A DNA stretch of 64,000 bases from Streptomyces sp. WMMC500 (GTDB lineage: Bacteria; Actinomycetota; Actinomycetes; Streptomycetales; Streptomycetaceae): positions 248,001 through 312,000 of the forward strand of contig NZ_CP114905.1 in assembly GCF_027497195.1 (NCBI RefSeq), written 5' to 3'. Of this stretch, positions 17,444 to 58,158 are shown piece after piece. Position numbers and translations under genes: made by a program. How positions within the stretch are numbered: the first letter of the stretch is position 1; the number at the start of each line of letters is the position of its first letter. The notes under the pieces were generated by a model. The model did not search any database, was not told the DNA's origin, and saw only the letters and a program-made list of their open reading frames with translations.

Positions 17444-17629
17444 CCGTGCAGCCTACGACCGCGCCCCGGGGCCTCCTCCCCCCGGCCCCTCGCCGGCCCC
17501 TCCACCGGCCCCGCCGGTCTCGTCGTCCCGAACGGGTGAGGGCCGCCCCGGGCCCTACACGCTGCGCAGTTGTCTGCGTACGCTGTGGTGGGACCACGGC
17601 ACGACGGGGACGTACGGCCCGGGGGTGCC

Positions 17630-41942: not shown

Positions 41943-42962
41943 TCAGGTGCGTGATTCGGACGGGACGTAACGGAAGGTGGGGCCGTGGCCGCCGGGAAGC
42001 CGCATCAGGGACTGCGCCTGCGCCTTCAGCCGGAACATCTCGCCGGTGGCGGCGCGCAGTTGCCCGGGCCTGCCGTCGAAGGCCTGCTCCAGCAGCCGGA
42101 GGATCCCGCAGTAGGTGCGGTCGAACTCCTCCTGCGCCGCCCGGGCCTCCGTGCCCTCGGCGGCCCGGCGCGGGTGGGGCGCCATGGCCGCGACCCCCTC
42201 CGGATCCACCGCGACCCTCTCCCCCGTGGGCCCCGACCGCGGCGTGTCCCCCGGGCGGAAACGGCGGCCCGCCTTCAGCTCCTGGAAGCGGTAGTAGTGC
42301 CCGACCTCGTCCCGCCCCGGATGGAAGACGTCACGATCGCCGTCCCACACCTCACCCCGGTCGTTGCCCTCGCCCTGCTCGACGATCTCCGCCAGCGCGC
42401 CGAGCGCCGATTCCAGGTCCTCCACCGCGAAGAGTTCCCCGGCGGTGTGCCGGAACCGGGCGCCACGGACCTGACGGGCCGGGTCGCCGGTGAAGACCGC
42501 CGGCTCACCGAGCCGGTCGCACAGCTCGCGCAGCCCCTGCTCGATCGCGGCGTAGAACTGGCCGATCGTCTGGTACCCGTCGTCCTGCGGCGCGGCACCG
42601 GGCGGGGCGGGCCGTTCGAGCCGCAGGAACATCTCCAGCGCCTCCGGCCCGAACGGCACCAGCGACAGCTCCAGGTCGCCGTGGGGCAGCCGCCGGGGAT
42701 GGGGCGGCAGCATCTCCGGCCTGTCCAGGCGCGGCCGGCCGCCGACCGCGTTGAGCAGGTTCGCCACCAGCGCCAGATGCAGCATCTCCTCCACGAAGAC
42801 ACTGCTGACCACTTCCACCGCCGCGGCGTTCCGGTCGGCGTCCAGGGAGTACAACGCCGTCAGGTACGGCGGCAGCGTCGCGTGCTCCAGCTCCACCGCC
42901 CACTGCAGGTGGTCACGGAGGCCGGCAAGCGTGTCGATACGCGCTGATCGTTCGTGGGTCAC
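41943..42962 (-). CDS. Ferritin-like protein (VioB/iminophenylpyruvate-dimer-synthase-type domain)
   Basis: The 339-residue protein begins with a ferritin-like four-helix region that carries two E-x-x-H-type motifs, AVELEHATLPPYLTALYS and VFVEEMLHLALVANLLNAVGG, which can bind a di-iron or mono-iron centre. The arrangement matches the ferritin-like domain found in VioB/RebD/StaD-type enzymes and in many stand-alone bacterial proteins of unknown reaction. A second half with EVGHYYRFQELKAGRRF and REAL-like helices is typical of the stand-alone group. GTG 42962 overlaps the SDR stop by four bases. It is probably an oxidative enzyme or a metal-binding protein acting with the SDR. Confidence 0.82.
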   Translation of the reverse strand: MTHERSARIDTLAGLRDHLQWAVELEHATLPPYLTALYSLDADRNAAAVEVVSSVFVEEMLHLALVANLLNAVGGRPRLDRPEMLPPHPRRLPHGDLELSLVPFGPEALEMFLRLERPAPPGAAPQDDGYQTIGQFYAAIEQGLRELCDRLGEPAVFTGDPARQVRGARFRHTAGELFAVEDLESALGALAEIVEQGEGNDRGEVWDGDRDVFHPGRDEVGHYYRFQELKAGRRFRPGDTPRSGPTGERVAVDPEGVAAMAPHPRRAAEGTEARAAQEEFDRTYCGILRLLEQAFDGRPGQLRAATGEMFRLKAQAQSLMRLPGGHGPTFRYVPSESRT

Positions 42963-43711
42963 CGGGCCACGGCCCCGACGAGCCAGTCGTGATAGCCGAT
43001 GGTGCCCAGCCGGGCGCCCTCGTCCGGCACCAGGGACCGGTCCGTCAGCGCGCCGCCGAAGTAGCGCGCCCCGGGGTCTGTGACGACCTCGCGGCTGTCG
43101 GCCCAGGCCGCGAGCGCCTGCCGGAAGAACTCGTCCATGCGGTACTGCTCGGGTCCCGCGATCTCGATCCGGCCCATCAGCGGCCCGCCCACGGCGGTCC
43201 TGGCGACCGCCTCGGCCACGTCCTCACCCGCGATGGGCTGGAACAGCACGGGTGCCAGGTGCACCTTGCCGTCCACCGTTGCGCCGTCGGCGATGCCGGG
43301 GACGAACTCGTAGAACTGCGTCGAGTGCACCAGCGAGAACGGGACGCCCGACTTCTCGATCAGCTCCTCCTGGGCGTTCTTGGCGTCGAAGTAGCCGCTG
43401 CCCGTCATCCGTTCCGTGCCGACGATCGACAGCGCGAGGTGGTGGCCCACGCCCGCCTCGGACTCCGCCGCGAGCAGGTTGCCGGTGGAGGTCGTGAAGA
43501 ACTTCATGACGGCGTCCGGCTCGAACGACGGCGAGTTGGAGAGGTCGATGACGACCTGCGTGCCCGTCATCGCTTCTGCCAGCCCCGCCCCGGTCAGCGT
43601 GTCGACGCCGGTGGTCAGGTCCGCCACCACGGCCTCGTGACCGTGCTCGCGCAGTTTCGTCACCACTTTCGAGCCGATGAGCCCGGCCCCGCCGATCACC
43701 ACGATCTTCAC
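42959..43711 (-). CDS. Atypical SDR (NmrA/epimerase-like) oxidoreductase
   Basis: The 250-residue NAD(P)-binding protein begins with the Rossmann motif VVIGGAGLIGSKVV (G-x-x-G-x-x-G). It then has AVVADLTTGVD, VIDLSNSPSFEPDAV, GVGHHLALSIVGTERM and SGYFDAKNAQEELIEKSG, where Tyr and Lys positions follow the atypical SDR pattern (Y-x-x-x-K). Such SDR genes are among the recurrent partners and targets of ECF41 sigma factors (carboxymuconolactone decarboxylase/oxidoreductase/epimerase set). GTG 43711 begins 45 bases after a -10-like GTCTTAG whose -35 partner is AGTCACA. It is the first gene of the three-gene operon. Confidence 0.88.
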   Translation of the reverse strand: MKIVVIGGAGLIGSKVVTKLREHGHEAVVADLTTGVDTLTGAGLAEAMTGTQVVIDLSNSPSFEPDAVMKFFTTSTGNLLAAESEAGVGHHLALSIVGTERMTGSGYFDAKNAQEELIEKSGVPFSLVHSTQFYEFVPGIADGATVDGKVHLAPVLFQPIAGEDVAEAVARTAVGGPLMGRIEIAGPEQYRMDEFFRQALAAWADSREVVTDPGARYFGGALTDRSLVPDEGARLGTIGYHDWLVGAVAR

Positions 43712-43755
43712 TACCGACCCCTTGCGTCCCCGGGAACCCGTTGTGCCCCGGTCGC

Positions 43756-43789
43756 CAGCTAAGACCGGACGGCGTCCGGTCTTGTGACT
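43756..43789 (-). promoter_or_regulatory. ECF41-like promoter of the SDR operon
   Basis: On the minus strand AGTCACA (43789-43783) is followed after 16 bases by GGTCTTAGCTG. This is close to the ECF41 consensus TGTCACA-N16-CGTC. The string GTCTTAGCTG is identical to one in the yceI promoter. The start codon lies about 45 bases downstream. Confidence 0.6.
43761..43783. repeat. Perfect 10-base inverted repeat inside the SDR promoter
   Basis: AAGACCGGAC and GTCCGGTCTT flank a 3-base centre (GGC). The palindrome fills the spacer and -10 region of the predicted ECF41-type promoter, the place expected for a repressor operator. It is unlikely to be a terminator, given its position. Confidence 0.6.
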
Positions 43790-43967: not shown

Positions 43968-46670
43968 GTGAAGTTGATCGGGCGCGACAAGGATCTCGCC
44001 CGGCTGGACGCCTTCGTCGACCAGGACGCCGTCGAAGGGGGCGCGTTCGTCCTGCTGGGTGCGGCCGGCGTCGGCAAGTCCGTCCTGCTGGACGCGGCCG
44101 CGGCACGGGCGGAGGCCGCCGGCCGCCGGGTGCTGCGCGCCTCCGGGTCGCAGTTCGAGGGCGAGGTGACCTACGCCGGTCTGCACCAGGTCCTCCACCC
44201 GCTCTTCGACGAGCTGCCCCACCTGGACCCCGTGCACCAGCAGGCACTGAGCGTCGCCCTGGGGCTCGGAGAAGGAGCCGCCCCCGGCCAGCTTCTCGTG
44301 GCCAACGCGGCCCTGCTGCTCCTGTGCCGGGCGGCGCGGCCCGGCCCGCTGCTGGTGGTCATCGACGACATCTCCTGGCTGGACCGGGCCAGCGCCGTCG
44401 TGCTCGGCCTCGTGGCACGCCGCCTCACCGGCGGCGGGGTCGGCCTGCTCGCCGCGTCGCGATCCGGCGGGGAGACGCACTTCGACCACGGCGGCCTGCC
44501 GGGCTACGAGCTGCAGCCACTCGAAGAACAGCACGCGAGGGCCCTGCTGAATGCACACTTCCCTGCGCTGACGTCCCGGATCCGCCGGCGGCTGCTGGCG
44601 GACGCGGAGGGCAACCCCCTGGCCCTCCTGGAGCTGCCGGTGGCCCTCGGCAACGTCCACGGAGCGCTGCCGCCCGTCCTGCCACTCAGCGACCGTCTGC
44701 AGGCGGTGTTCGCCGCGCGGATCCGGAACCTGCCGGAGACGACGTACGACATGCTGCTGCTCGCCGTACTGGACGGCACCGGGGACCTGAACGTCCTCGA
44801 CACCGGCGCGCTGGCAGCCGCCGAGCGGGCACGGCTCGTCAGGGTCGACCGGGGCGCCGGAAGGCTGCACTTCCGCCATCCGCTGATCGGCTCCGCGGTG
44901 ATGGAGACGGCCACGAGCGGGCAACGCCACCGCGCGCACCGGCTGCTCGCCGAGCGCCTGACCGGCCAGCCGGAACGACGGGCCTGGCATCTGGCGGAGG
45001 CCGCTCAGGGCCCGGACGAGGAAGTCGCCGCACTGCTGGACTCCGTTGCCGACGCCTACCTGCGGCGGGGGGACAGCGTCCACGCCATCACGCTGCTCCT
45101 GCGCGCGGCCGAACTGAGCACGGACGATCTCGAGCGGGCCGGCCGCCTGGGCGTGGCCGCCTACTTCGGCGCGGTCGTCAACGGGGACCTGCGCGACGCT
45201 CCGCGACTGCTGGAGCAGGCCCGCAGGGCGGACCGGCGGGGCGAGTCGCTGGCCGCCGCGGTCGGCGGCGCGTACCACCTGCTCAACGGCGAGGGCGACG
45301 TGGACAGCGCGCACCGCCTGCTGGTCGGCGCGATCGAGATGCTCGACGACCCGGGCGACGCCCGCAACGAGACTCTCGTCGAGGGGCTCTACACCCTGCT
45401 CATGATCTGCTTCTTCGGCGGCCGGGCCGAACTCTGGGAGCCCTTCCACGAGGCGATCGACCGGCTCGAGCCGGGACCGCCCGAGCTGATGGACATCCTC
45501 GGCAGGACCTTCTCCGACCCCGCCCGTCTGGCAGCCCCCGTGCTCGACCGGGTCGACGCCGCGATCGCCGGCCTGCACCGGGAGTTCATTCCCGTACGCA
45601 TCATCCGCATCGCCATCGCCGCCGCTTTGATCGACCGCCTGGGCCCGTGCCGCGAAGGCTTGTGGCGGGTCGTCCACCACGGTCGCGACGGCGGAGCCGT
45701 CACTTCGGCGATCGAGGCACTGTTCGTCCTGGGCAACGACTGCTTCTTCGTCGGGCAGTACGAGGAGCTGGAGGAGGTCCTCGACGAGGGGCTGGCGCTG
45801 TGTGACCAGCACGGCTACCCGCTGCTCTCCTGGCCGGGCGTCTACCTGAGGGCGATGGTGGCGGCGGTGCGCGGTGAGACGGAGACCGCCACGGGACTGG
45901 CCGACCGGATGGCCCGCTGGGCGACCCCGCGGGGAGCCCGGGCGATCCAGAACTACGCATGGCAGGTCAACGCGCTGGTGGCACTGGGCGCGGGCGACTT
46001 CGAGAAGGCCTATCAGCAGGCCGCCTCGATCAGCCCGGCGGGTGTGCTGGCCTCGCACGTGCCGCACGCGCTGTGGGCGATCACGGACCTCGTCGAGGCC
46101 GCCTGGCGGAGCGGCCGCCAGCAGGTAGCCGCCGCGCACGCCGCCGCGGTGCAGGGCACGGCTGTGATCTCGCCGCGGCTGGCGATGGTCGCCGGGGCCT
46201 CGGCGGCCCTGACCGCCGACGACGCGGACTACCGCCGGTTGTTCGACGCGGCGCTCGGCATACCCGGTGCGGAGCGCTGGCCGTTCGAGCACGCCAGGTG
46301 GCAGCTCCTGTACGGGGAGCGCCTGCGCCGGGACAGGGCCACCGCCGAGGCCCGCGTGCAGCTCGCCGCCGCGCACGAAACCTTCCGCAGCCTGGGCGCC
46401 CGCCCGTGGCTGACCAGGGCCAACACCGAGCTGCGCGCGACGGGCCGGGCCATCGGCCCGGGCGGGGCGGAGCTCACTCCCCAGCAGTGGGAGATCGCCA
46501 CGCTCGCCGCCGAGGGGCTGACCAACAAGCAGATCGGCGAGCGGCTGTTCCTGTCCCCGCGGACCGTCGCCAATCACCTCTACCAGTCGTTCCCGAAGCT
46601 CGGGATCGCCTCACGGGCGGGGCTTCGCGACGCGTTGAGTCGAATGACTCAATCGAAGCCGCCGACCTGA
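43968..46670 (+). CDS. LAL-type LuxR family transcriptional regulator (first of four)
   Basis: The 900-residue large ATP-binding LuxR regulator has a Walker A LGAAGVGKSVLLD (residues 30-42), a Walker B-like LLVVIDDISWLDRAS, a helical TPR-type middle of about 500 residues and a C-terminal LuxR HTH, LTPQQWEIATLAAEGLTNKQIGERL to LGIASRAGLRDAL. Such proteins integrate a ligand or protein signal through the ATPase/TPR parts and activate promoters. GTG 43968 has no strong ribosome site. It is divergent from the SDR operon and only 17 bases upstream of the second LAL gene, so the two are probably co-transcribed. Confidence 0.9.
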   Translation: MKLIGRDKDLARLDAFVDQDAVEGGAFVLLGAAGVGKSVLLDAAAARAEAAGRRVLRASGSQFEGEVTYAGLHQVLHPLFDELPHLDPVHQQALSVALGLGEGAAPGQLLVANAALLLLCRAARPGPLLVVIDDISWLDRASAVVLGLVARRLTGGGVGLLAASRSGGETHFDHGGLPGYELQPLEEQHARALLNAHFPALTSRIRRRLLADAEGNPLALLELPVALGNVHGALPPVLPLSDRLQAVFAARIRNLPETTYDMLLLAVLDGTGDLNVLDTGALAAAERARLVRVDRGAGRLHFRHPLIGSAVMETATSGQRHRAHRLLAERLTGQPERRAWHLAEAAQGPDEEVAALLDSVADAYLRRGDSVHAITLLLRAAELSTDDLERAGRLGVAAYFGAVVNGDLRDAPRLLEQARRADRRGESLAAAVGGAYHLLNGEGDVDSAHRLLVGAIEMLDDPGDARNETLVEGLYTLLMICFFGGRAELWEPFHEAIDRLEPGPPELMDILGRTFSDPARLAAPVLDRVDAAIAGLHREFIPVRIIRIAIAAALIDRLGPCREGLWRVVHHGRDGGAVTSAIEALFVLGNDCFFVGQYEELEEVLDEGLALCDQHGYPLLSWPGVYLRAMVAAVRGETETATGLADRMARWATPRGARAIQNYAWQVNALVALGAGDFEKAYQQAASISPAGVLASHVPHALWAITDLVEAAWRSGRQQVAAAHAAAVQGTAVISPRLAMVAGASAALTADDADYRRLFDAALGIPGAERWPFEHARWQLLYGERLRRDRATAEARVQLAAAHETFRSLGARPWLTRANTELRATGRAIGPGGAELTPQQWEIATLAAEGLTNKQIGERLFLSPRTVANHLYQSFPKLGIASRAGLRDALSRMTQSKPPT

Positions 46671-46687
46671 AACGTAGGGTGGACAGC

Positions 46688-49525
46688 ATGGCCACTCCGC
46701 GCACCGCTCTCGTCCTCGGTGGAGTATTCGACGGTGCTGGCCGGCGTGGCGTCCGCACCCTGTTCGGGCACGACGGCCACGGCACCGAGCTGTTCGGGCG
46801 CGCATCGGAGTGCGCCCGCCTCGACGAGGTGATCACGGCTGCCCGCCTGGGCGAGAGCCGCGTACTCGTCGTGGAGGGCGAACCGGGCATCGGGAAGTCG
46901 GCTCTCCTGGATTATCTCGAGAGCTCGGCGAGCGGCATGCGGACGGTGCGAGCGGCCGGTGTCGAGTCGGAGATGGAACTGGCCTTCGCCACCCTGCACC
47001 AGTTGTGCGCACCGCTGATGGAGGGGCTGGAGGAACTTCCCGCACCGCAGCGCACCGCGGTCGAGTCGGTCTTCGGAGTTCGGGACGGAACGCCGCCGGA
47101 GCGCTTTCTGGTCGGCCTTGCCGTACTGAGCCTGCTGTCCGCGGCGGCGGAGAAGGCCCCCTTGCTCTGCGTGATCGACGACGCACAGTGGATGGACGCG
47201 GCCTCGGCTCAGGTCCTCGGTTTCGTCGCCCGGCGGCTGCAGGCCGAGTCGGTCGCCCTCGTCCTCGGCTCGCGGCGGAGCTCCCAGGACCTGTTCGGAC
47301 TGCCGGTGATGGCGCTGGGCGGGCTCGGGGCCGAGGACGCGCGGGCCCTGCTGAGCTCCGTGGCACACGGGCCGGTCGACGCGGAGGTCCGCGATCGGTT
47401 CGTGGCCGAGACCAGGGGCAACCCGCTGGCACTGCTGGAGCTGCCGCGCGAGCTCGCCGAGGCCGGGATCGCGGGCGGCCTCGGCCTCATGGACGCCGAG
47501 ACGCTGCCCGGGAAGATCGAGCAGAGCTTCCTGGACCGGATCGAGCGGCTGCCCCGGCAGACCCGCCTGTTCCTGCTGGTCGCGGCGGCCGAGCCGGCCG
47601 GTGATCCCGCCCTGGTGGAGCGCGCGGCCGAGCGGCTCGGCGTCACACCCGCGACCGTTGTGGAAGACGGGACCGACGGGCTGCTGGATGTCGGAGAACG
47701 GGCGATCTTCCGTCATCCTCTCGTCCGGTCGGCGGTGTACCGCTCGGCGGGGAAGGAGGAGCGCCGGGCCGTCCACCTCGCGCTGGCGGAGGTCACGGAT
47801 GCGCGGGCCGCCCCGGACCGGCGTGCCTGGCATCTCGCGTCGGCGGCGACGGCACCCGACGAAGCGGTCGCGGCGGAACTCGAACAATCCGCCGACCGGG
47901 CACGGGCGCGCGGCGGACTGAGCGCCATGGCGGCGTTCCTGCAGCGGTCCGTGGAGCTGACCGCCGACGGCTCCCGGCGCACCGAACGCGCCCTTGCCGC
48001 CGCCGAGGCCGGCCTGCGCGCGGGTGACGTCGACGTCGCCCGCCGGTTCGCCGACCTGGCCGCCCGGGACGCGCAGGACGAGTGGCAGAGCGTGCGAGCC
48101 CACCTGGTCCGCGGTCACGTCACGTTCGCGGCAGGCTTCAACGACGAGGCGCCGCCGATGTTGCTGGCGGCGGCGCAACGGCTCGAGTCCTTCGACATGG
48201 ACCTGGCGCGGGAGACGTACCTCATCGCGTGGGTCAGCGCCTCGTACGGGGCCGGCGACCAGGACAGCCTCCTGGCGATCTCGCGGGCGATGATGCGGCT
48301 GCCACCCCCCGAGGGAAGCCCGCGCGCGCTCGACCTCCTCGTCGAAGGCCACGCGCTGCTCGTCACCGAGGGCCGGAAGGCGGCACTCCCCTCGCTGCGC
48401 AGTGCGGCCGACGCGATCGCCCGCACTCCCCCCAAGGAGACCACGAAATGGATCTGGGCGGCCGGTGGCTCGGCCGCGCTCCTCTGGGAGGACCGGCTCA
48501 TGGTCGAGACGCACGTCCAGGCGGCCGAAGAGGTGCGTGCGGCCGGCGCCGTGTCCGAGTTCCCCGTCAATTTCCACGCGTGGGGCATCCCGGCCCTGAT
48601 GAGCGGCGACTTCACCACCGGGTCCGCGATCGTCGCGGAATCCGAGGCGCTGGCCGCCTCGACGGGTGTCGGCAGCACCCAGCACACCAAGCTGCTGCTC
48701 AAGGCGCTGGAGGGCGACGAGGACGAGGGGCCCCGCCTGCTCACCGCCGCGATCGAGCGGGAAACCGCCAACAGCCGGCTCAACGGCATCGTCTCGGCCA
48801 ACTGGGCGGCAGCGCTTCTCTACAACGGCCTGGCGCGGTACGACCAGGCGCTGCGAGCGGCCCGGGCCACGGCCCGGGGTGCCAACGTCGTCCTCGCCCA
48901 GTGGGCACTGCCCGAGGTCGTCGAGGCGGCGACCCGCGTCGGGGACGACACCACCGCGCAAGGAGCGCTCGATGACCTGGCAGCCGCCACGGAATCGTGC
49001 GACACCGACTGGGCCCAGGGGATCCTGGCCCGCTGCCGGGCGCTCGTGAGCCGGGACGACGACGCGGACCGCGCCTACCGCGAGGCGATCGAGCGGTTGG
49101 GCCGTACGATCCTGCGCCCCGAACTGGCCCGCGCTCACCTCTTGTACGGCGAGTGGCTGCGCCGTAACCGCAGGCGGGCCGAAGCGCGGCCTCATCTCCG
49201 GACCGCCCACGAGACGTTCGTGTCGATCGGCATGAGGGCGTTCGCCGAGCGCTCCCGCCGTGAGCTGCTCGCCACGGGCGAGACCGTCCGCAAGCGGGCG
49301 GGGACCGACTCGGCGGTCTGGCAACTGACGGCGCAGGAGAGCCAGATCGCCATGCATGCGGCGGAGGGCCTGACCAACCCGGAGATCGCGGCCCGGCTGT
49401 TCCTCAGCCCGCGTACGGTCGAGTTTCACCTCGGCAAGGTCTTCGCGAAGCTCGGTATCGGCTCCAGAACGCAGCTCGAGGACGCCCTCGCCGACAGCGG
49501 GCATGCGCACGGCCGGGCCTGCTAG
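46688..49525 (+). CDS. LAL-type LuxR family transcriptional regulator (second of four)
   Basis: This LAL regulator has 945 residues. After a 35-residue lead that lacks similarity to the family core, FGRASECARLDEVI opens the ATPase domain with Walker A EGEPGIGKSALLDYL (residues 63-77) and Walker B LLCVIDDAQWMDAAS. The TPR-like middle is followed by the HTH LTAQESQIAMHAAEGLTNPEIA to LGIGSRTQLEDAL. ATG 46688 is chosen as the first ATG after the previous stop. It shares domain order and HTH style with the first regulator, so the pair may come from a duplication, but the sequences have diverged far beyond recent copying. Confidence 0.9.
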   Translation: MATPRTALVLGGVFDGAGRRGVRTLFGHDGHGTELFGRASECARLDEVITAARLGESRVLVVEGEPGIGKSALLDYLESSASGMRTVRAAGVESEMELAFATLHQLCAPLMEGLEELPAPQRTAVESVFGVRDGTPPERFLVGLAVLSLLSAAAEKAPLLCVIDDAQWMDAASAQVLGFVARRLQAESVALVLGSRRSSQDLFGLPVMALGGLGAEDARALLSSVAHGPVDAEVRDRFVAETRGNPLALLELPRELAEAGIAGGLGLMDAETLPGKIEQSFLDRIERLPRQTRLFLLVAAAEPAGDPALVERAAERLGVTPATVVEDGTDGLLDVGERAIFRHPLVRSAVYRSAGKEERRAVHLALAEVTDARAAPDRRAWHLASAATAPDEAVAAELEQSADRARARGGLSAMAAFLQRSVELTADGSRRTERALAAAEAGLRAGDVDVARRFADLAARDAQDEWQSVRAHLVRGHVTFAAGFNDEAPPMLLAAAQRLESFDMDLARETYLIAWVSASYGAGDQDSLLAISRAMMRLPPPEGSPRALDLLVEGHALLVTEGRKAALPSLRSAADAIARTPPKETTKWIWAAGGSAALLWEDRLMVETHVQAAEEVRAAGAVSEFPVNFHAWGIPALMSGDFTTGSAIVAESEALAASTGVGSTQHTKLLLKALEGDEDEGPRLLTAAIERETANSRLNGIVSANWAAALLYNGLARYDQALRAARATARGANVVLAQWALPEVVEAATRVGDDTTAQGALDDLAAATESCDTDWAQGILARCRALVSRDDDADRAYREAIERLGRTILRPELARAHLLYGEWLRRNRRRAEARPHLRTAHETFVSIGMRAFAERSRRELLATGETVRKRAGTDSAVWQLTAQESQIAMHAAEGLTNPEIAARLFLSPRTVEFHLGKVFAKLGIGSRTQLEDALADSGHAHGRAC

Positions 49526-49582: not shown

Positions 49583-52390
49583 TCAGCCGGCGGTCGCGTC
49601 GCGTTCCAGGTAGACGCGGGCCAGCTCCACCCGCGACCTCAGGCCGAGCTTGCGGAAGACGTGCCGGACGTGGGTGCCGACGGTGGCGGGAGACAGAAAA
49701 AGCGCTTCTGCGGCCTGGCGGTTGGTCGCTCCCTCGGCGACGAGCGAGGCGACCCGCCGCTCGGCGGGGGTGAGCGCGTCCCAGCCCCGAGCGGCCGGAG
49801 GCCGCCGGCGCCGGAGCCCTTCCTTCCCGGAGAGGCGCCGCACCCTGCCGGCTTCGTTCTCGGCGCCCGTACGCGCGTACATGCGCTCCGCGTCTGCGAG
49901 CGGCCCGGCGGCGGCGTCGGCGTCGGACTTCAGGAGCAGCCTCCCGGTGTCCTCCAAGGCTGAGGCGAGAGGAAGAGGCATGGCGAGCCCGCGCAGGGTC
50001 CGGACAGCCCGCCGGAGCGCCTTGAGGTCGTCGTCCAGCAGCCCGCGGGAGTGATCCGCGACCGCCCGGAAGAACGGAAAGCCGGGGTTGAGTACGACCC
50101 GGCGCTCAGACTGCGCGACCACGCCCGCCGCCACGTGTCTCGCGCCGCAACGCAGCGCCGTCCGGACGAGCGCCGGGTCCTCGGCCGGGTCCTCCGACCA
50201 TGCCGGCGATCCCCAGACGAGCGCGCCGTCCTCCAGCAGGGCCCGCACCCGGCGCAGGTCGCCCGTTCCGTCGGCGAGCCGGGCCGCCAGGCGCGCGCTC
50301 GCCGCACGCATCGGCCCGGTCTCCGAGGCGAGCGTGCGCTCGGCGTGTGCGGCCGCGCGCTGCGAGGCGGCGGGATCAGCCGTCAGCAGCCCGACCCGCC
50401 CGATCACGGACAGCGCCTCGAAGGAGACGGTGTCCCCGGCGCCTGACGCCTCGGCCGTCGCGAGCGCGGCCTCGGCTTCCGCCCGGGCCTCGGCCAGCCG
50501 TCCCGCGGCCAGGAGGAGGCGAGCGCGGACGGTGAGCCAGAGGTTCAGGCCCTGGGCGTGGCCCGGCCGCCGGGCCGCCGCCACCCCGTCGGCCGTCGCG
50601 CGCAGCCCTTCGCGCACCCTGCCGGTCATGCCGTACAGCGAGGCTCGCCACACGGCGGGGACGTACAGTGCGGAGGGCTCCGGCACGTGGGTGACGGCCT
50701 CGGCCGCCAGGTGCTCGGCAGCGGTGAAGTCGAGCCGGTGGACCCGGGCCACGGACTCGGCGGCCCGCAGCAGCGCCAGGGCCGAGTTGCTGCCGGCCCG
50801 CGGCACGGTGTCGGTGGTGGACGTGACCAGCCGCTCGGCCGCGGTGGCATCGCCGGTCAGCAGCGTGGCCAGGCATCGCAGGGCCAGCAGCGGAGCGCGC
50901 AGTCCTTCGGGTACGCCGTCCAGGCGGGTTCCGGCCGTGCTGTGCCGCAGCACTTCGGTGAAGGAGCCCTGGAGCGCCGCCAGCGCCGCGGCCAGCCGTA
51001 CCCGCGCCTCCACGGCCGCGGGCAGCGGTTCCGCCAGGGCCGACTCGGTGAGTACCCGGCCCTCTCCCCCGCGGCCGACGCGCACGAGCAGAGGCAGAGC
51101 GTCCGCGACCGCTTCGGCATGGTGCGCGGAGCCGCCCGCGGCGGCGAGGGCGACGGTCTTCCGCGCCACCGCCACGGCGGTGTCGGGTGAGCCCTGGGCG
51201 AGGTCGGGCAGGGTCCGGCGCAGCAGCGCGACGAGCTCGTGGTCGCCGGGCTCCGCGGCCTCCGCCAGGGCCACGGCCACCTGGGCGGTCGGCGTGCCCT
51301 GCGCCAGGCTCAGCTCGGCGGCTCGCTTGCGCGTCGCCCTGCGGTGCGGCTCGGGCACCGTTTCGCGGATGGCTTCGCGGACCATGTCGTGCCGGAAGGT
51401 GAGGGGATCCGTGGGGGCGACGAGTCCGGCGTCGACGGCTTCCTGGAGGGCCCCGACGAGCTCGGCGGTGTGCCGCCCGCTGAGGTCGGCGAGCCGGGCG
51501 GCGTCCAGGTCGCGGCCGAGTACCGACGCGAGCCGCAGCACCTCCCGGGCGACCGGCGACAGATGCCCCAGGAGACGGTGGGCGGAGCCGTGGAGGGGGA
51601 TCGGCGCATGGCCGGCGGCCAGATGTGCGACGCCGTCCGCCCTCGTGACGGCCCCCTCGGCCATGAGCCCGAGGACGGTCTCGGTCACCAGGAGCGGGCG
51701 CCCGCCGGTCTGCCCCAGCAGGTGCAGGATGCCGGCGCCCGGCTCGGCTCCGAGCAGGTCTCCGGCGATCCGGGCGACCGCGTCGTCCGGCAGAGGGCCG
51801 AGGCGGATCGTGTGGGCGCCGGCGCCGGCGAGCCCGGAGACGGTGGCCCGTACCCCTGCGTCGGACGCACCGGCGCGCACGGTGACCAGCCAGAGGATCG
51901 CGTGCCCTGACAGCCTGGCCGGCAGGGCACGCAGCGCCAGGAGCGTCCCGCCGTCGCACCACTGCAGGTCGTCGATGGCGACGAGCAGCGGCTGGTCCCG
52001 CGCGGACAGTCGCAGCTCGTCCTGCAGCGCCCGGAGGGGCCGGAGATGTTGCGCTGCCGGGACGGCCGGCGCCGGGAGATCGGTCGTCCCGGCGACGGGC
52101 TGTTCACCGGCCCCCAGTGCCCGCCGGAGCACGCCGAACGGAACCCCCCGCCGGTGGTGCTCACCGGTCGCGCCGAGAACGCGGACCGACTCGGCCCGGG
52201 CGATGGCCCGCGCCTCGCGCACGAGGCGGCTCTTGCCGTCTCCCGGTGCCCCCTCGACGAGGACGACGCCTCCGTGCCCGTCGCGCACCTGCCGGATCCG
52301 CTCGGCCACGTCGGCGAGTTCGGCCTCGCGCCCGCGCAGCCGGGGCTCCCTCCCGAGCTCTCCGCCGGCCCCGCTCCGCGCCAGCCGCAT
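49583..52390 (-). CDS. LAL-type LuxR family transcriptional regulator (third of four)
   Basis: This LAL regulator has 935 residues and is convergent with the second. It has GREAELADVAERI, Walker A EGAPGDGKSRLVREA (residues 46-60), Walker B LLVAIDDLQWCDGGT, a long TPR-like region and the HTH LTPAERRVASLVAEGATNRQAAEALF to LGLRSRVELARVYL. The HTH and the end of the protein closely match those of the fourth regulator, including shared DNA at the 3' ends (GGGCCAGCTCCACCCGCGAC at 49619 and 52568), so the two are paralogues. ATG 52390 follows about 106 bases of intergenic sequence. No metabolic target is obvious nearby. Confidence 0.9.
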   Translation of the reverse strand: MRLARSGAGGELGREPRLRGREAELADVAERIRQVRDGHGGVVLVEGAPGDGKSRLVREARAIARAESVRVLGATGEHHRRGVPFGVLRRALGAGEQPVAGTTDLPAPAVPAAQHLRPLRALQDELRLSARDQPLLVAIDDLQWCDGGTLLALRALPARLSGHAILWLVTVRAGASDAGVRATVSGLAGAGAHTIRLGPLPDDAVARIAGDLLGAEPGAGILHLLGQTGGRPLLVTETVLGLMAEGAVTRADGVAHLAAGHAPIPLHGSAHRLLGHLSPVAREVLRLASVLGRDLDAARLADLSGRHTAELVGALQEAVDAGLVAPTDPLTFRHDMVREAIRETVPEPHRRATRKRAAELSLAQGTPTAQVAVALAEAAEPGDHELVALLRRTLPDLAQGSPDTAVAVARKTVALAAAGGSAHHAEAVADALPLLVRVGRGGEGRVLTESALAEPLPAAVEARVRLAAALAALQGSFTEVLRHSTAGTRLDGVPEGLRAPLLALRCLATLLTGDATAAERLVTSTTDTVPRAGSNSALALLRAAESVARVHRLDFTAAEHLAAEAVTHVPEPSALYVPAVWRASLYGMTGRVREGLRATADGVAAARRPGHAQGLNLWLTVRARLLLAAGRLAEARAEAEAALATAEASGAGDTVSFEALSVIGRVGLLTADPAASQRAAAHAERTLASETGPMRAASARLAARLADGTGDLRRVRALLEDGALVWGSPAWSEDPAEDPALVRTALRCGARHVAAGVVAQSERRVVLNPGFPFFRAVADHSRGLLDDDLKALRRAVRTLRGLAMPLPLASALEDTGRLLLKSDADAAAGPLADAERMYARTGAENEAGRVRRLSGKEGLRRRRPPAARGWDALTPAERRVASLVAEGATNRQAAEALFLSPATVGTHVRHVFRKLGLRSRVELARVYLERDATAG

Positions 52391-52496: not shown

Positions 52497-55280
52497 CTAG
52501 GCGGGAGACCGGGGACACCCCGGGGGGTTGGGGCCCGGGGTCGCGGCTTGGTGTGCCAGCACGAGACGGGCCAGCTCCACCCGCGACCTGATGTCCCATT
52601 TGGTGAAGATGTGCCGCAGGTGGGTGCTGACCGTGTGACTCGACAGGGACATGTGCTCGGCGACCTGCTGGTTGGTGGCTCCCTGGGCCACCAGCAGGGC
52701 CACTTCCACCTCGGCCGCCGTCAACCCCCACCGGCCTTCCGCCGCCTTGTCGCTGGACCGGCGTGCCCGGCGTACGCCGAGCAGGCGCAGCCGACTCCGG
52801 ACGCGACCCGCGTCACGGGCCGCGTGCGCGCCCTCGTAGATGCCGAGCGCGGTGTCCAGGAGAGCCACCGCGGCGGGATCACCCCGGTCGCCGAGGGCCC
52901 GGCCCGCGTCCTCGGCCGCCGAGGCGTGGACGAGGGGGCGTTCGGTGTCCGACAGGAGTGTGGCGGCGTGCAGCAGGAGGGCGGGGTCGTTCCCGACGAT
53001 TCCGCGCACGTGGGCCGCGACGCCCCGGAGGAAGGGGGATCCGGGCCCCCACCCCTGCGCCTGCTCCGCCGCGGCCGCCGCGAGTCCGCCGTGCCTGCCG
53101 CGCAGCGCGAGCCGGGCGAGCACGACCAGGTCGGCGGGGTCGGCCGGAACTCCGGGCAGCGCGTCCGACGGGCGCGAGTCCCCGCCGATGCGCTCGACGA
53201 GTCCGACGAGGCGGGCCGTGTCGCCGCTGGCGTCGGCCGCCAGCGCGGCCAGCCACACGCCGGTACGGCGCACGGAGAGCGCCGCGGCCTCCGTCATCCG
53301 CGCGCCCTCGGCCGCACATCGGCGGATGCCGTCCCTGTCGCCCAGGTGCAGCGCCGCCCGGCCGAGCGCGTACCGGGCGGTGAGGTCGGCGAAGTCGCCG
53401 GAGCCGAGGTCGCCGGCCGCCAAGAGCGTGGAGTCGGCCTCCGCGCGGGCGGCGGCGGGACGACCCGCGTCAAGCAGGATTCGCGACCGGGTCAGGGACC
53501 ACAGGAGCGCCGCGGCGGTGTGCCCGTTCCGGCGGGCCGCGTGGACGGCCTCGTCGGTGTCGCGCAGCGCCGCCCCCACCTGCCCGGACGCGAGGTGGAC
53601 GAACGCCCGCCCGCAGTCCTCCAGCTCCCACGGCGGGTGCCGGACGGGTGACCGCGCGGCAAGAGCGTCGGCCCGGTCCCGGCACGCGCAGGCGCGTGCC
53701 GGATTCAGCCGGGCCAGCTCCACCCCGGCCAGTGCGGCGTGCGCGGTGGCCGCAGCCGCGTCGTCGGAGCTGTCCGTGGCCGGCCCGGTCGCGGCGACGG
53801 CCTGTGCGGCGTTTCCCGCATGGGCGAGATGCAGTGCTTCGAGTGCCGCGAGCCGAGCGCGCAGGGACTCCGGGAGATCCGGCAGCGTCAGCCCGATCCG
53901 GCACTGGCGGACCGCCTCGACGAAGGACGTGTGGCTCGCCAGCCGCGCCACGCTCAGCCGCAACCGGCCCTCGGCCTCCGGCGTGAGACGCCCCTCGAAC
54001 GCCGTGTCGGCCAGCGCCATGGCCTCGGTGTACCGGCCCTCCGCGCCCAGGAGGTCGACCGTCTGGTCGATGGTCACGGTGGTGTGCGTGCCCTCCGGCC
54101 CCGCGAGTTCGAGGGCCCTGCGGTTCCATGCCACCGCCGAGGAAGGCGCCGTGGCCGCGAGGTCCGCCGCCGCTTCGCGCAGCAGGCCGACGGCCTGGAG
54201 ATCGCCCGGCACCGCGGTCTCGGCGAGTACGGCGGCGACGTCCGTCGCCCTGTCCCCGTGAGCAAGGCGTACGTTGACCGCCCGCCGCCTCAGGTAGCGG
54301 CGCAACGCCGCGGGAAGTGCCTCGTAGATCGCCTGGCGGACCAGATCCTGCCGGAAGGTCAGGAGTGTCCCCCGGCGGGACAGGATTCCGGCGCCGACCG
54401 CCTCCGCCGTCAGCGCGGCGATCTCGTCCGGTGTGACTCCGGTCAGCGCGCCCATGTCCGCCGCGGTGAACGTCGGCTCGAGTACGGCGGCGACCTGCAG
54501 GCCACGCCGGGCGGCCGGCGACAGGTGGTCGAGCCGGTCCCGGACCAGGGCGTGGAACCGGCGGGGGAGCCTCTCCCCCGCCGTCGAGGCGACACCGTCC
54601 CGGATGGTGAGGAGACCTTCTTCCCGCATGCCCCGAAGCAGCTCGACGACCAGCCCCGGCACCCCCTCCGCGCGCTGTACGATCCGCATCACCGCTTCCC
54701 CGGGCTCGGCTTGGAGCAGGTCGGCCGCCAGCGCGTGGACGGCCCGGTCGGCCATCGGGCGCAGGACGATCCGGCCGTTGGCGCCGTCGCGCACCCGCCG
54801 CAGCGGGTGCACCGACTCGGGCGCGCCGTCGTGGGCCGGCCCCACGGCCAGGACCCACAGCATCTGCGAGGTCGCCGCGTCCTGCGCGAACGCGGCTATC
54901 ACGCCGAGCGTCTCGGGGTCACACCACTGCACGTCGTCCAGGCAGATGACCAACGGCGCCCTCGCGGATGCCGCCTCCAGCAGTGGCCCGAACGGAAGCG
55001 TGAGGCCGGCACGTTTACCCGTGCCCTGTCGGCAGGCCAGACCCGCGTGGACGGAATGCGCCCGGATCTCCGCGAGCAGCCGGGTCTTCCCGGAACCGGG
55101 CGGCCCCTTGACCGTGACCACCCCGCCCGCTCCGCCGGCCAGCGCCGTCAGCCGCTCCCGCAGCGATCCCAGCTCGGACTCCCGACCGTGCAGCGGCAGC
55201 TCCCCGGCCGTGCCGGGTGGCGACGCCTGCGTGCCTCGCCCGCCGCCTGAGAGCAAGCTCTTCGTCTTCTCGACCGCCAT
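52497..55280 (-). CDS. LAL-type LuxR family transcriptional regulator (fourth of four)
   Basis: This LAL regulator has 927 residues. It starts at ATG 55280 with a strong GGAGGAG site; the frame is open to 55385 but without support. It has HGRESELGSLRERLTAL, Walker A KGPPGSGKTRLLAEI (residues 58-72) and Walker B LVICLDDVQWCDPET. The segment after Walker A looks shorter than in typical members. It ends with the HTH LTAAEVEVALLVAQGATNQQVA to WDIRSRVELARLVL. It is transcribed towards the third regulator. It is the paralogue of that gene, and its HTH carries a lineage-specific WDIRSR where most LALs have LGxxSR. Confidence 0.9.
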   Translation of the reverse strand: MAVEKTKSLLSGGGRGTQASPPGTAGELPLHGRESELGSLRERLTALAGGAGGVVTVKGPPGSGKTRLLAEIRAHSVHAGLACRQGTGKRAGLTLPFGPLLEAASARAPLVICLDDVQWCDPETLGVIAAFAQDAATSQMLWVLAVGPAHDGAPESVHPLRRVRDGANGRIVLRPMADRAVHALAADLLQAEPGEAVMRIVQRAEGVPGLVVELLRGMREEGLLTIRDGVASTAGERLPRRFHALVRDRLDHLSPAARRGLQVAAVLEPTFTAADMGALTGVTPDEIAALTAEAVGAGILSRRGTLLTFRQDLVRQAIYEALPAALRRYLRRRAVNVRLAHGDRATDVAAVLAETAVPGDLQAVGLLREAAADLAATAPSSAVAWNRRALELAGPEGTHTTVTIDQTVDLLGAEGRYTEAMALADTAFEGRLTPEAEGRLRLSVARLASHTSFVEAVRQCRIGLTLPDLPESLRARLAALEALHLAHAGNAAQAVAATGPATDSSDDAAAATAHAALAGVELARLNPARACACRDRADALAARSPVRHPPWELEDCGRAFVHLASGQVGAALRDTDEAVHAARRNGHTAAALLWSLTRSRILLDAGRPAAARAEADSTLLAAGDLGSGDFADLTARYALGRAALHLGDRDGIRRCAAEGARMTEAAALSVRRTGVWLAALAADASGDTARLVGLVERIGGDSRPSDALPGVPADPADLVVLARLALRGRHGGLAAAAAEQAQGWGPGSPFLRGVAAHVRGIVGNDPALLLHAATLLSDTERPLVHASAAEDAGRALGDRGDPAAVALLDTALGIYEGAHAARDAGRVRSRLRLLGVRRARRSSDKAAEGRWGLTAAEVEVALLVAQGATNQQVAEHMSLSSHTVSTHLRHIFTKWDIRSRVELARLVLAHQAATPGPNPPGCPRSPA

Positions 55281-55564: not shown

Positions 55565-56203
55565 TCACGCACTCGCCCGCAGGGTGAGGCCGGCGACGAG
55601 GAGTTCCTCGAGGCCGTCGAGGTCACCGGTCTCGGCCGCGTCGAGGAACGCGCGGACGAGGCGCTGGTGCGTGGTGGTGTCCACCGGGCGGCGCCGATCC
55701 TCCGCCAGGTGGGCACCGGCCCGCCGCACGAGCTGCCGCGCGTAGCTCTCGCCCAGGCTCAGCAGCTCGGAGATCCTCCGGTACGGGTAGTCGAAGGCCT
55801 TGCGGAGCAGATAGGCGGCGCGCTCGGCGGGCGACAGCTTCTCCAGCAGCAGCCGGACCGTCAGGTCGACCGCCTCGTACCGCTCCGCCGCCGACCCGAG
55901 GTCGCCGCCGTAACCGGCCTCGGCCAGGAGCGAGGGTCCCACGGACTTCTCGCGACGGCGCCTGGCAGAACAGGCGACGTTGATGGCGAGCCTGGTGGCG
56001 GTCGTGGCGAGGAACGCGGACGGGTTGACGACGACCGAGCGGTCGGTGCGGGCCCACCTCAACCACGTCTCCTGAACCACGTCCTCGGCCTCGCCCACGT
56101 CCTGGAGGTACCGGTAGGCGATGGCGAAGAGCCGGGGGCGTACGGCGGCGAACGCCGACTCGTCCGTTCGGTTCTGGGCGGGAGGTTCGCAGGTCGAGAT
56201 CAT
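55565..56203 (-). CDS. ECF sigma factor, SigJ/ECF41-like, without C-terminal SnoaL domain
   Basis: This 212-residue sigma factor directs RNA polymerase to specific promoters. Region 2 is seen in FAIAYRYLQDVGEAEDVVQETWLRWAR and region 4 in LSPAERAAYLLRKAFDYPYRRISELLSLGESYARQLVRRA, both of the SigJ/ECF41 style. The usual ECF41 linker motif WLPEP is not present (GPSLLAEAG instead). The SnoaL-like C-terminal domain of about 100-120 residues is missing: the protein ends soon after FLDAAETGDLDGLEELL, exactly where that domain would begin. In ECF41 factors this tail regulates activity, so loss should change control. ATG 56203 has GGAG 5 bases upstream. ECF41-like promoters occur just beside it. Confidence 0.82.
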   Translation of the reverse strand: MISTCEPPAQNRTDESAFAAVRPRLFAIAYRYLQDVGEAEDVVQETWLRWARTDRSVVVNPSAFLATTATRLAINVACSARRRREKSVGPSLLAEAGYGGDLGSAAERYEAVDLTVRLLLEKLSPAERAAYLLRKAFDYPYRRISELLSLGESYARQLVRRAGAHLAEDRRRPVDTTTHQRLVRAFLDAAETGDLDGLEELLVAGLTLRASA

Positions 56204-56490
56204 CCTGTCTCCACTGAGAGTGAGCGTCAGCAAGAGACCTCAGCAAACGTCGAACCGCGCCACCGGACATCACACGGATGCATGAACCCCCGTGACGAGG
56301 GTCCCGGGCCGCGATCTCATGCGTTCTTGCGATGTATCCCGCACCTGCCGGTGGGCATCTGGAACGTGCACAGGGGGCAGGGAGCCGCGGGCGAACGCCG
56401 CACCCTCGCAGAACGTCGTCTGGTACGCCCTCGGGGGGACGCACCAGAGGACGCAGCCGGCGGCTCCCGTCGACGGCTGCCGTCGACAGC
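56204..56490. other. Gap between yceI-type and sigma-factor genes
   Basis: This stretch should hold the sigma-factor promoter (minus strand). It contains CGTCACG but no matching -10, so an ECF41-type autoregulatory promoter is not convincing here. No gene is supported. Its end carries two CGTCGAC-containing repeats just before the terminator hairpin. Confidence 0.45.
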
Positions 56491-56530
56491 GCCCCCGGCC
56501 CGGCCCCCCAGGAGGGGCCGGGCCGGGGGC
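56491..56530 (-). terminator. Very strong hairpin terminator downstream of the YceI-family gene
   Basis: GCCCCCGGCCCGGCCCC and GGGGCCGGGCCGGGGGC form a perfect 17-base-pair G/C stem with the loop CCAGGA, 65 bases after the end of the minus-strand YceI-family gene. It also separates that gene from the sigma-factor gene that follows on the same strand. Confidence 0.85.
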
Positions 56531-56595
56531 TGGTCGTGCGCGGGCGCGGGTGCGAGCCGCGGGCGGGCCGGGCGGTGGTGGCTCGGGCACCGGTG

Positions 56596-57171
56596 TCACA
56601 CGGTGGGCGACGCCCGGCGCAGCACCGCCTCGATCTCCAGAGCGATGTGCACGGTGTTGCCCACGACGACTCCACCGCCGTCCAGCGGCAACTTGATGTC
56701 GACGCCGAAGTCGCTGCGGTCGATCGTGGTCGAGGCCGAGAAGCCGGCGCGGGTGCCGCCATCGATGTCGGGCGCCGATCCGTTCATCTCCACGGCCAGC
56801 GGGACGGAACGGGTGACGCCCTTGACGGTCAGCTCTCCGTCGACCACGAAGCGGTCGCCGTCCGGGCGCACGCCCGTGGAACGGAACGTCCAGATCGGGT
56901 AGTTGGTGACGTCGAAGAAGTTGGCCGAGCGCAGGTCCTTGTCCCGCAGATCGCTCCCCGTGTCGACGGAGGCGGGGTCGATCGACGCGGTGACGGACGA
57001 ATCGGTCACGTCGTCGCCGGTGACGATCTCGCCCGAGAAGGTCCCGAACCGGCCACGCACCTTGCTGACCATCATGTGCCGGACGGTGAACGAGACGTCG
57101 GAGTGGACCGGGTCGATTTCCCAGAGTCCCGCGCGGTAGCCCGGGATCGAGGTGGTGGCTGCCGTAGTCAT
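56596..57171 (-). CDS. YceI family protein
   Basis: The 191-residue lipocalin-like protein of the YceI family binds polyisoprenoid or other amphiphilic chains inside a beta barrel; no signal peptide is present, so this copy is cytoplasmic. Family landmarks are GLWEIDPVHSDVSFTVRHMM, VRGRFGTFSGEIV, DLRDKDLRSANFFDVTNYP, GELTVKGVTRSVPLAVE and the ending with IALEIEAVLRR. ATG 57171 is preceded by GGAGAG. The promoter region carries TGTCACG and GTCTTAGCTG in ECF41-like arrangement, shared with the SDR operon. Stress-related roles for YceI proteins fit sigma-factor control. Confidence 0.92.
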   Translation of the reverse strand: MTTAATTSIPGYRAGLWEIDPVHSDVSFTVRHMMVSKVRGRFGTFSGEIVTGDDVTDSSVTASIDPASVDTGSDLRDKDLRSANFFDVTNYPIWTFRSTGVRPDGDRFVVDGELTVKGVTRSVPLAVEMNGSAPDIDGGTRAGFSASTTIDRSDFGVDIKLPLDGGGVVVGNTVHIALEIEAVLRRASPTV

Positions 57172-57199
57172 CGGCTCTCCAAGAGATGGCGGGTGTCGA

Positions 57200-57234
57200 C
57201 AGCTAAGACAAGACAGCCGCTCGGCCCCGTGACA
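57200..57234 (-). promoter_or_regulatory. ECF41-like promoter of the YceI-family gene
   Basis: On the minus strand TGTCACG (57234-57228) is followed after 17 bases by TGTCTTAGCTG. The ten bases GTCTTAGCTG are identical to the SDR-operon promoter, with one base more spacing. The YceI start codon lies about 30 bases downstream. Confidence 0.6.
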
Positions 57235-57269
57235 CGCCCGCCGCGGCCTTCTGCCCGCGCGGCCCGCTC

Positions 57270-57296
57270 TGTCACATCCCGCCGGCCCATCCGGTC
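57270..57296 (+). promoter_or_regulatory. ECF41-like promoter of the alpha/beta hydrolase gene
   Basis: TGTCACA (57270-57276) is followed after 16 bases by GGTC (57293-57296), matching the ECF41 pattern TGTCACA-N16-CGTC except for the first -10 base. The hydrolase start codon is 49 bases downstream. Confidence 0.55.
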
Positions 57297-57345
57297 GAAG
57301 GTGGACTCAGCGGATCGGCTACCACGCCGGAAAGGCGGGCCTCGC

Positions 57346-58158
57346 ATGAAGACCATCGTGCTCATCCACGGGTTCTGGGTAACGCCACGAAGTTGGGAAC
57401 ACTGGGTCGACCGCTACGAGCGGGCCGGCCACCGCGTCATCGCACCCGCCTATCCGGGGCTCGAGGTGGAGGTCGAGAGTCTCAACGCCGACCCGGCGCC
57501 GATCGAGAAGTTGACGGGCGCGGCCATCATTTCGCACCTGGAGTCGGTGGTCGGCGCCCTCGACGAGCCGCCGATCATCATGGGCCACTCCGCGGGCGGT
57601 ACGTTCACACAGGTACTGCTGGACCGCGGATTCGGCGCCGCGGGCGTGGCGCTGAACTCCGCACCGACCGACGGCGTGCGCATCGTCCCGCCGTCGCAGA
57701 TCAGGTCGACCTTCCCCGTGCTGAAGAGCCCGGCGAACCGGCACAGGGCCGTGGGCCTGACGTTCGAGCAGTGGAGGTATGCGTTCACGAACACCTTCGG
57801 CGAGGAGGAGGCCCGCGAGCTCTACCGGCGCTACCACGTCCCGGCATCCGGGCGGATCGTCTGGGACAGCGCGCTGGCGAACTTCAAGCCCGGCCCGCAG
57901 GACACCCACGTCGACTACCGCAACGACGACCGCGCGCCGCTGCTGTTCGTCTCCGGCGGGGAGGACCACATCATGCCGCCGAGCGTGCAGCGGTCCAACG
58001 CCAAGCACTACAAATCGCCGGCAACCCTCACCGAGGTCGAGGTGTACGCGGGCAGGGCGCACCTGCTGCCCGCGCAGCAGGGCTGGGAGGAGATCGCCGA
58101 TCACGTCCTGGACTGGGCCGTGCGGCACGCGGGCTGGCGCTCGCCCTCGGGAGCGTGA
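57346..58158 (+). CDS. Alpha/beta hydrolase
   Basis: The 270-residue cytoplasmic hydrolase has the oxyanion-strand motif VLIHGFWVTPRSWEHW, the nucleophile elbow MGHSAGGTF (Ser in G-x-S-x-G), Asp in LLFVSGGEDHIMPP and a late His in VYAGRAHLLPAQQG. Its placement and style match hydrolases that accompany SigJ-like sigma factors and YceI. ATG 57346 gives a start with homology from residue 1; the frame is open upstream as a shadow of the YceI-family gene. The divergent YceI-family gene shares the 174-base intergenic region, which holds an ECF41-like element facing each way. Confidence 0.9.
   Translation: MKTIVLIHGFWVTPRSWEHWVDRYERAGHRVIAPAYPGLEVEVESLNADPAPIEKLTGAAIISHLESVVGALDEPPIIMGHSAGGTFTQVLLDRGFGAAGVALNSAPTDGVRIVPPSQIRSTFPVLKSPANRHRAVGLTFEQWRYAFTNTFGEEEARELYRRYHVPASGRIVWDSALANFKPGPQDTHVDYRNDDRAPLLFVSGGEDHIMPPSVQRSNAKHYKSPATLTEVEVYAGRAHLLPAQQGWEEIADHVLDWAVRHAGWRSPSGA

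Follow-up and report, generated by a model that had tools for sequence, protein, structure and literature searches.

A truncated ECF41-lineage sigma factor with a predicted local regulon and neighbouring LAL genes in Streptomyces sp. WMMC500

Which genes does an unusually short ECF sigma factor serve, and what would set its activity? We addressed this question in a 64,000-nucleotide stretch of the chromosome of Streptomyces sp. WMMC500 (NZ_CP114905.1, positions 248,001 to 312,000; hereafter the window, in whose numbering coordinates are given). The sigma gene lies at 55565..56203 on the minus strand. The original prediction was of a SigJ/ECF41-like factor driving three transcription units through matching promoters on both sides of an 11-kb block of LAL regulator genes. 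The explanation at which we arrived, and which we consider likely as a whole, is that the gene encodes an ECF41-lineage factor without a SnoaL domain, that this factor would serve a regulon of three units, and that the regulon would be controlled through expression of the sigma gene, with the LALs as candidate regulators.

We first describe the protein. The open reading frame starts at the ATG at 56203 and yields a product of 212 amino acids. A Pfam search detected sigma2 (PF04542, 5.3e-13) and sigma4 (PF08281, 7.8e-9) alone, indicating that the ECF core is present, and 46 residues follow sigma4. The SnoaL-like extension of about 100 amino acids and the DGGG and NPxK/NPDKL motifs were all absent; the protein thus belongs to the ECF41/SigJ lineage by descent and is not of the SigJ type as such. 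The linker between sigma2 and sigma4 reads VGPSLLAEA in place of WLPEP, and many relatives have GPWLPE or a near form there. In NCBIfam, SigX4 was the top model and SigJ the next (181/323 and 158/271 bits, far under the curated cut-offs), with model coverage ending at positions 195/281 and 204/293. The sole solved relative detected by sequence was SigJ, with the alignment reaching SigJ residue 205/312. No SnoaL remnant was found downstream of the stop codon in any of the three frames; this result and a comparison of tail lengths ruled out a frameshift, a stop or an assembly error as the origin of the short protein. In the literature searched, of which coverage was partial, we met no mention of SnoaL-less ECF41 groups, and the truncation may already be in print.

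A scan of named genomes for relatives of this factor gave 80 loci; loci are cited below by L numbers. Tail length beyond sigma4 was bimodal, 42-91 versus 121-164 residues, with two faulty rows left out. We then built a tree of 114 sigma factors. It omits L046_0, which the end of its contig cuts short, L103_0, whose start is misplaced, the two duplicates of L147_0 (L002_0 and L139_0) and rows below 33% identity. The results showed that the window's factor lies within the SnoaL-bearing ECF41-like sigma factors. The 25 truncated proteins require five changes, and 21 of them form one clade (support 100/98) nested among full-length factors and spanning Streptosporangiaceae, Streptomycetaceae, Mycobacteriaceae and Actinopolymorphaceae. 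L236 was classed as truncated for lack of any similarity to SnoaL, despite a frame that continues for 153 residues. Four further truncations (L063, L065, L195 and L196) fall outside the main clade, and L196 has a full-length paralogue next door. The window's factor sits in a well-supported 15-row subgroup of the clade, mostly from Streptosporangiaceae, and in none of the 149 other genomes sampled from the genus did the best 20 candidates scored per genome include a match to it at E<=1e-70, which together suggests that it was acquired horizontally. That such a truncated factor is a decaying pseudogene is highly improbable: the defining domain is indeed missing, truncation arose four separate times outside the clade and the sigma gene of L105 is visibly damaged, but 21 truncated members have persisted as one clade across four families, the residual tail retains invariant residues and nothing of SnoaL is left past the stop.

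The retained tail bears on the activity of the factor. In an alignment of 22 relatives, invariant tail positions lie between 183 and 203. A structure model of the protein (mean pLDDT 67.5, pTM 0.49) was used for the tail helices alone; with moderate confidence (pLDDT 70-79 by blocks), it predicts two helices, 177-193 and 197-212. In ECF41 factors, removal of the whole extension abolished activity, and removal of its distal part raised it about 20-fold (Ecf41Bli 1-204) and about 120-fold (Ecf41Rsp 1-206) (Wecke 2012, PMC3426412). The window's factor ends near SigJ residue 210. By analogy with these partial truncations, a factor that has lost the SnoaL inhibitor and kept a short stretch after sigma4 would probably be competent whenever it is made, and its intrinsic activity may be high.

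All three predicted promoters could be read directly in the window, and promoters similar to them are conserved in other actinobacteria. The first, TGTCACG-N17-TGTC followed by TTAGCTGTCGAC (57207..57234, minus strand), lies 35 nt before the ATG of a gene for a YceI-family protein identified by family scan (56596..57171, minus). The second, AGTCACA-N16-GGTC followed by TTAGCTGGCGACCGG (43763..43789, minus), lies 51 nt before the GTG of an operon. This operon comprises the genes for an SDR/NmrA-epimerase-like protein (42959..43711, minus), a ferritin-like protein (PF12902, VioB-related; 41943..42962, minus), whose start, taken at the first GTG, has a 4-base overlap with the SDR stop, and a hormone-sensitive-lipase-type (HSL) esterase (40975..41928, minus) beginning 14 bases past the ferritin-like gene. 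The three genes run head to tail and are tightly packed, so one site can serve them all. The third promoter, TGTCACA-N16-GGTC (57270..57296, plus), is divergent to the yceI promoter and lies 49 nt before the ATG of an alpha/beta hydrolase gene (Abhydrolase_6 by family scan; 57346..58158, plus). The ten bases said to be common to the SDR and yceI promoters were confirmed as GTCTTAGCTG and proved to be part of a longer identity, GTCTTAGCTGnCGAC. Exact copies of GTCTTAGCTGnCGAC number two in the 8.6-Mb genome, namely these two promoters; at up to 2 mismatches there were 56 matches versus 41 for the reversed pattern. An inverted repeat, CCGGTC-N9-GACCGG, overlaps the -10 of the SDR promoter (43748-43768) and occurs likewise in L033, L034, L039, L040, L041, L105 and L055; the yceI promoter has TGTC-N9-GACA at the equivalent position. 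These repeats are possible operators or 5'-end hairpins.

We next compared the frequency of such sites with chance. A loose pattern, TGTCAC-N17..20-GTC, gave 2 matches in the window versus 1.89 expected, and was dropped as evidence because this is chance level. The stricter TGTCACR-N16/17-KGTC, which excludes the SDR site since the first base of that site is A, gave 30 matches genome-wide versus 6 when reversed, and 9 of the 30 fell in a 23-kb stretch surrounding the gene of a second sigma factor (binomial p ~8e-17). A refined pattern, GTCACR-N9/10-GCYGYCYKGTC, gave 8 matches versus 0 reversed; it misses the hydrolase site, and 7 of its matches fall into two short regions, of which that in the window is one. 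In a sample of 150 genomes from the genus, the highest count was that of this genome (8, the next being 6), and 72 of the 150 had at least one match. In the 12 genomes behind loci of related sigma factors, the pattern matched 52 times versus 4 for its reverse. We weigh most a matrix built from 58 sites outside this genome, because the genome's own sites had contributed to the refined pattern. With a listing threshold of 8 bits, this matrix, whose training sites were chosen by a pattern fixing most of the -35 and the GTC, listed exactly the three claimed sites in the 64 kb, at 36.6 (yceI), 30.8 (SDR) and 25.0 bits (hydrolase); the reversed window reached 10.5, 9.7 and 8.5 bits at best. At other paralogue loci of the genome, it gave at most 9.0 bits at L143, L144 and L145 and 23.3 at L146, which has a full-length sigma factor, indicating that discrimination between paralogues is good and not complete.

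The same promoters and targets were then sought in the relatives. The results showed that, beside related sigma factors in other genera, promoters of this kind repeatedly accompany SDR and HSL-esterase genes and, more rarely, ferritin-like genes. SDR orthologues were found in nine of the 80 loci (71-77% identity in eight, 70% in the ninth), full-length ferritin-like matches in seven (69-76%) and HSL esterases in several. The SDR promoter, with most of TTAGCTGnCGAC, recurs before the SDR orthologues of Nonomuraea and Microbispora. The nine SDR promoters, from L032, L033, L034, L036, L039, L040, L041 and L105 (Nonomuraea, Microbispora) and from L051 (Nonomuraea, full-length sigma factor), align in register with that of the window, sharing GTCAC, GCYGYCY and KGTC and then mostly TTAGCTGnCGACCGG. 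In L105 (10001-10310), the sigma gene is broken into two frames with its N-terminal half gone; the SDR promoter beside it looks intact.

Around truncated factors, 24 loci held 72 strict sites in 476 kb, versus 2.5 in shuffles and 0 for the reversed pattern. In 26 loci of the truncated set, 96 of 101 sites were intergenic, and 82 had a gene start within 300 bases downstream, as judged with a simple codon-position gene caller for which small genes and starts are approximate. The truncated set of the strict-site count includes L183, L191, L195 and L196, where a full-length factor lies beside the truncated one; L105 was used for the sites, the LAL loci and the matrix, and is outside the tree and the 25-sigma LAL count. 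Genes with a site directly upstream were SDR (16/20), FAD-dependent oxidoreductase (9/10), two cupin families (8/8 and 3/3), LtrA (5/6), HSL (7/11) and YceI (2/3); such sites were few before ferritin-like genes (2/8), a recurrent hydrolase (4/17) and universal stress protein genes (0/3). Taken together, the genes of the predicted regulon suggest redox and ester/lipid chemistry. In L042, an ECF41 promoter island includes a gene for a homologue of the cytochrome b of the cytochrome bc1 complex (16555-17946, minus), which is preceded by a site at a distance of 138 bases. Loci of full-length factors outside the Streptomyces-genus group held 34 sites in 374 kb (20 loci), and distant ECF41-like loci 1 site in 678 kb (38 loci).

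In loci of truncated factors, the columns leading up to the -10 show a conserved GCYGYCY; sequence logos were drawn without near-copies that agree in the ten bases flanking the -10 on either side. The mean score out of 7 was 6.0 in the main clade, 4.6 around full-length Streptomyces-genus factors and 5.2 around other full-length factors, compared with 2.9 expected (per-locus test for the difference, p=4e-5). The yceI and SDR sites carry the complete element; the hydrolase site matches 5/7, yet it is the third and last match to the matrix. From these data we infer that the SnoaL-less factor would bind RNA polymerase and initiate at [T/A]GTCAC[A/G]-N9/10-GCYGYCY-KGTC-TTA, and that it would drive the SDR/ferritin-like/HSL-esterase operon and yceI and, less certainly, the gene for the alpha/beta hydrolase.

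The chromosome holds a second island of this kind. A second truncated sigma factor with a 44-residue tail is encoded at 1972214, and at least 10 matrix matches lie within about 23 kb of this island; 11 reach 20 bits or more in a 40-kb stretch, versus none in the reversed island. The island (1966-1989 kb; L139, L140) encodes the truncated factor, two LALs, a WhiB protein, pyruvate dehydrogenase E1 and a FAD-dependent fumarate-reductase-like protein; cupins, an HSL-type esterase and an SDR-like gene, so labelled without a family scan, are also present. A lone strong site of 33.7 bits (2641797-2641823, L205) is distant from both islands; 71 bases downstream of it begins a gene of some 300 codons.

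The promoter data raise the question of which sigma factor uses these sites, and several observations weigh against the reading given above. The second truncated factor and the full-length L146 locus have similar sites, so the adjacent factor need not be in exclusive control: of the claim that this factor drives the three units, a local ECF41-lineage regulon is supported and exclusivity is not. Full-length relatives of the Streptomyces-genus group likewise lie among many promoters, with 101 sites in the 315 kb of their 16 loci, which ruled out multi-promoter loci as exclusive to truncated factors. The GCYGYCY element scores 7/7 at four sites of full-length Planotetraspora factors and 4.6/7 in the four separately truncated loci; it was thus ruled out as a mark of truncation and marks a wider clade. 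The natural end of the protein was placed through the SigJ alignment and not through Ecf41Bli 204 itself. A rival explanation is that the sites are real ECF41-type promoters driven mainly by other sigma factors, that encoded at 1972214 or full-length paralogues, the local factor being redundant or silent. The genome has 21 further sigma-like matches, six of those measured being full-length, the promoters of the second island score like those of the window, and one site at L146 scores 23.3 bits; but the sites cluster beside truncated factors, those of L143, L144 and L145 reach 9.0 bits at most, and the SDR orthologue, its promoter and a related sigma factor occur together in other genera. We regard this rival as unlikely, and prefer recognition by the adjacent SnoaL-less factor.

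If the factor is competent once made, the level of the regulon would depend on how strongly the sigma gene is expressed. We therefore turned to its upstream region (56204..56433, minus), which has no ECF41-type site by pattern or matrix; autoregulation was thus rejected, and 4 of 28 related sigma genes do have such a site. The region aligned with that of L031 only, while blastn against the loci found L030 (70% over 132 bases) and not L031. Strong terminator-like hairpins (56440..56595, minus; minimum free energy -101.3 kcal/mol, z -2.83) lie between yceI and the sigma gene and suggest that the latter is transcribed separately. In relatives, the 110 nt before the start were 79% identical in 9 truncated-sigma loci versus 51% (8 loci) and 54% (6 loci) in full-length groups whose starts were set by a simple rule, although the proteins of the full-length groups are more alike than the truncated ones (82% versus 76%). 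An 85-base conserved non-coding block lies just upstream of the sigma gene in L029, L030, L032-L035 and L037-L041; in most of these loci it contains GGCATC-N3..5-GATGCC, and several have CCAGGG repeats further upstream. Word counts upstream of sigma genes were ambiguous as to a shared operator (the best words occurred in 14 and 13 of 14 loci, compared with 11 in shuffles). This leader conservation fits a shift of control to the transcription or leader of the sigma gene.

The neighbouring LALs are the best candidates for that control. Four lie in the window: one with AAA_16 and GerE by family scan (43968..46670, plus), two with LuxR-type C-terminal matches (46679..49525, plus, and 49583..52390, minus), and one recognised by its relatives' similarity and its length alone (52497..55280, minus), which is 284 bases downstream of the sigma gene on the same strand. 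LALs above 500 amino acids were found in 17 of 26 truncated-set loci (31 genes), compared with 1/20, 1/16 and 0/38 in the three full-length sets. By sigma rows, they were near 17 of 25 truncated versus 2 of 71 full-length factors (Fisher p=5e-11, a figure inflated by shared descent), in a table without the rows dropped from the tree or the second, full-length factors of loci counted once. A LAL gene directly adjoins the sigma gene in the window, in the second island and in L033 (split), L035, L063, L064, L066, L067, L068 and L196. In L033, the LAL (6705-9405, minus), a homologue of the window's second LAL, consists of two overlapping frames that match the C-terminal and the N-terminal half of the latter, owing to either a frameshift or a sequencing error. 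The predicted regulon does flank the LAL block; the block itself, because LALs recur near truncated factors, is probably more than a mere interruption.

Alternatively, the LAL genes might lie there by chance or by hitch-hiking and play no part in controlling the sigma factor, a rival that we place only slightly short of even. Independent events are few: truncation yields 4 independent pairs (2 agreeing, 0 opposing, 2 without difference) and LALs yield 9 (mean 2.7 agreeing, 0 opposing), so that significance is unreachable in both cases. Eight of 25 truncated factors have no LAL above 500 amino acids nearby, though L033 among them has the split one, and an ECF41-type site lies within 300 bases upstream of 3 of the 31 LAL genes (L041, L063, L064), making these possible targets; most thus look like regulators rather than targets, and some may be both. 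Among 17 new Streptosporangiaceae loci (three more were repeats), LALs were near 2 of 15 further full-length factors as well as in 2 of 2 truncated-clade loci. The leader data also weigh against our main reading in that the conserved block of 11 other loci was not found in the window and a third full-length group gave no value. Opposed to hitch-hiking are the excess of LALs near truncated factors, which holds within Streptosporangiaceae-type loci (10/15 versus 2/22, p=0.0007, the 15 including L105 with its damaged sigma gene and omitting L065, a LAL-less truncated locus of that family), and the presence of LALs in 2 of the 4 separately truncated loci (L063, L196). On the reading that we prefer, the LALs may set the amount of sigma factor. 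As a tentative extension, one that we lean against rather than toward, the lineage may have lost its fused sensor/inhibitor and passed control to LAL-driven transcription of the sigma gene, with the factor as output arm of a relay firing a whole metabolic island. This exchange of sensor for LAL may have happened more than once.

ECF41 factors are the standard example of sigma factors that are regulated through a domain fused to them and serve one target. Here a domain-free variant like the engineered one seems to have arisen naturally and to have been kept as a clade across several families, in multi-promoter islands and often with LALs. The system makes it possible to test the role of the first part of the extension alone and whether a LAL can stand in for a fused sensor, and the promoter matrix supplies ready predictions of regulons.

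Compared with known systems, the window's factor shares with ECF41 (Ecf41Bli, Ecf41Rsp and M. tuberculosis SigJ) the ECF core, the -35 TGTCACA, a spacer of 16/17 and an epimerase/NmrA-type target, and no anti-sigma gene was recognised adjoining it, as in ECF41. It differs in the loss of SnoaL, DGGG and NPDKL, in a degenerate WLPEP and in having several transcription units instead of one. With respect to the ECF41 promoter TGTCACA-N16(+/-1)-CGTC, the -35 and the spacing match, whereas the -10 here is GGTC/TGTC (KGTC), with GCYGYCY in addition. The counterpart of the ECF41 COE target, the SDR/NmrA-epimerase gene, has a promoter here, though about 12 kb from the sigma gene. Wecke 2012 (PMC3426412) concluded that ECF41 factors generally control one gene or operon, compared with three predicted sites here and at least 10 in the second island; since full-length relatives are also multi-site, this departure from the one-target rule is not tied to truncation. 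For three S. coelicolor sigma factors with extensions, truncated forms transcribed more genes in vitro than full forms (PMC9205884). The first LAL of the window has the AAA_16 and GerE domains and the length of about 900 amino acids of actinomycete LAL regulators, which are described as regulators of metabolite clusters (PMC3282765); at the level of listings, no tie between LALs and an ECF sigma factor was apparent in the LAL literature surveyed. ECF56, ECF205, ECF294 and ECF295 have the related architecture before the loss and bear the SnoaL-like extension (PMC8999054), and the ECF56 factor SigG1 has a partner protein, RsfG (PMC7730460). Ecf41Bli 1-204 and Ecf41Rsp 1-206 likewise consist of sigma2, sigma4 and the start of the extension; these were engineered, whereas here the form is that of a natural clade.

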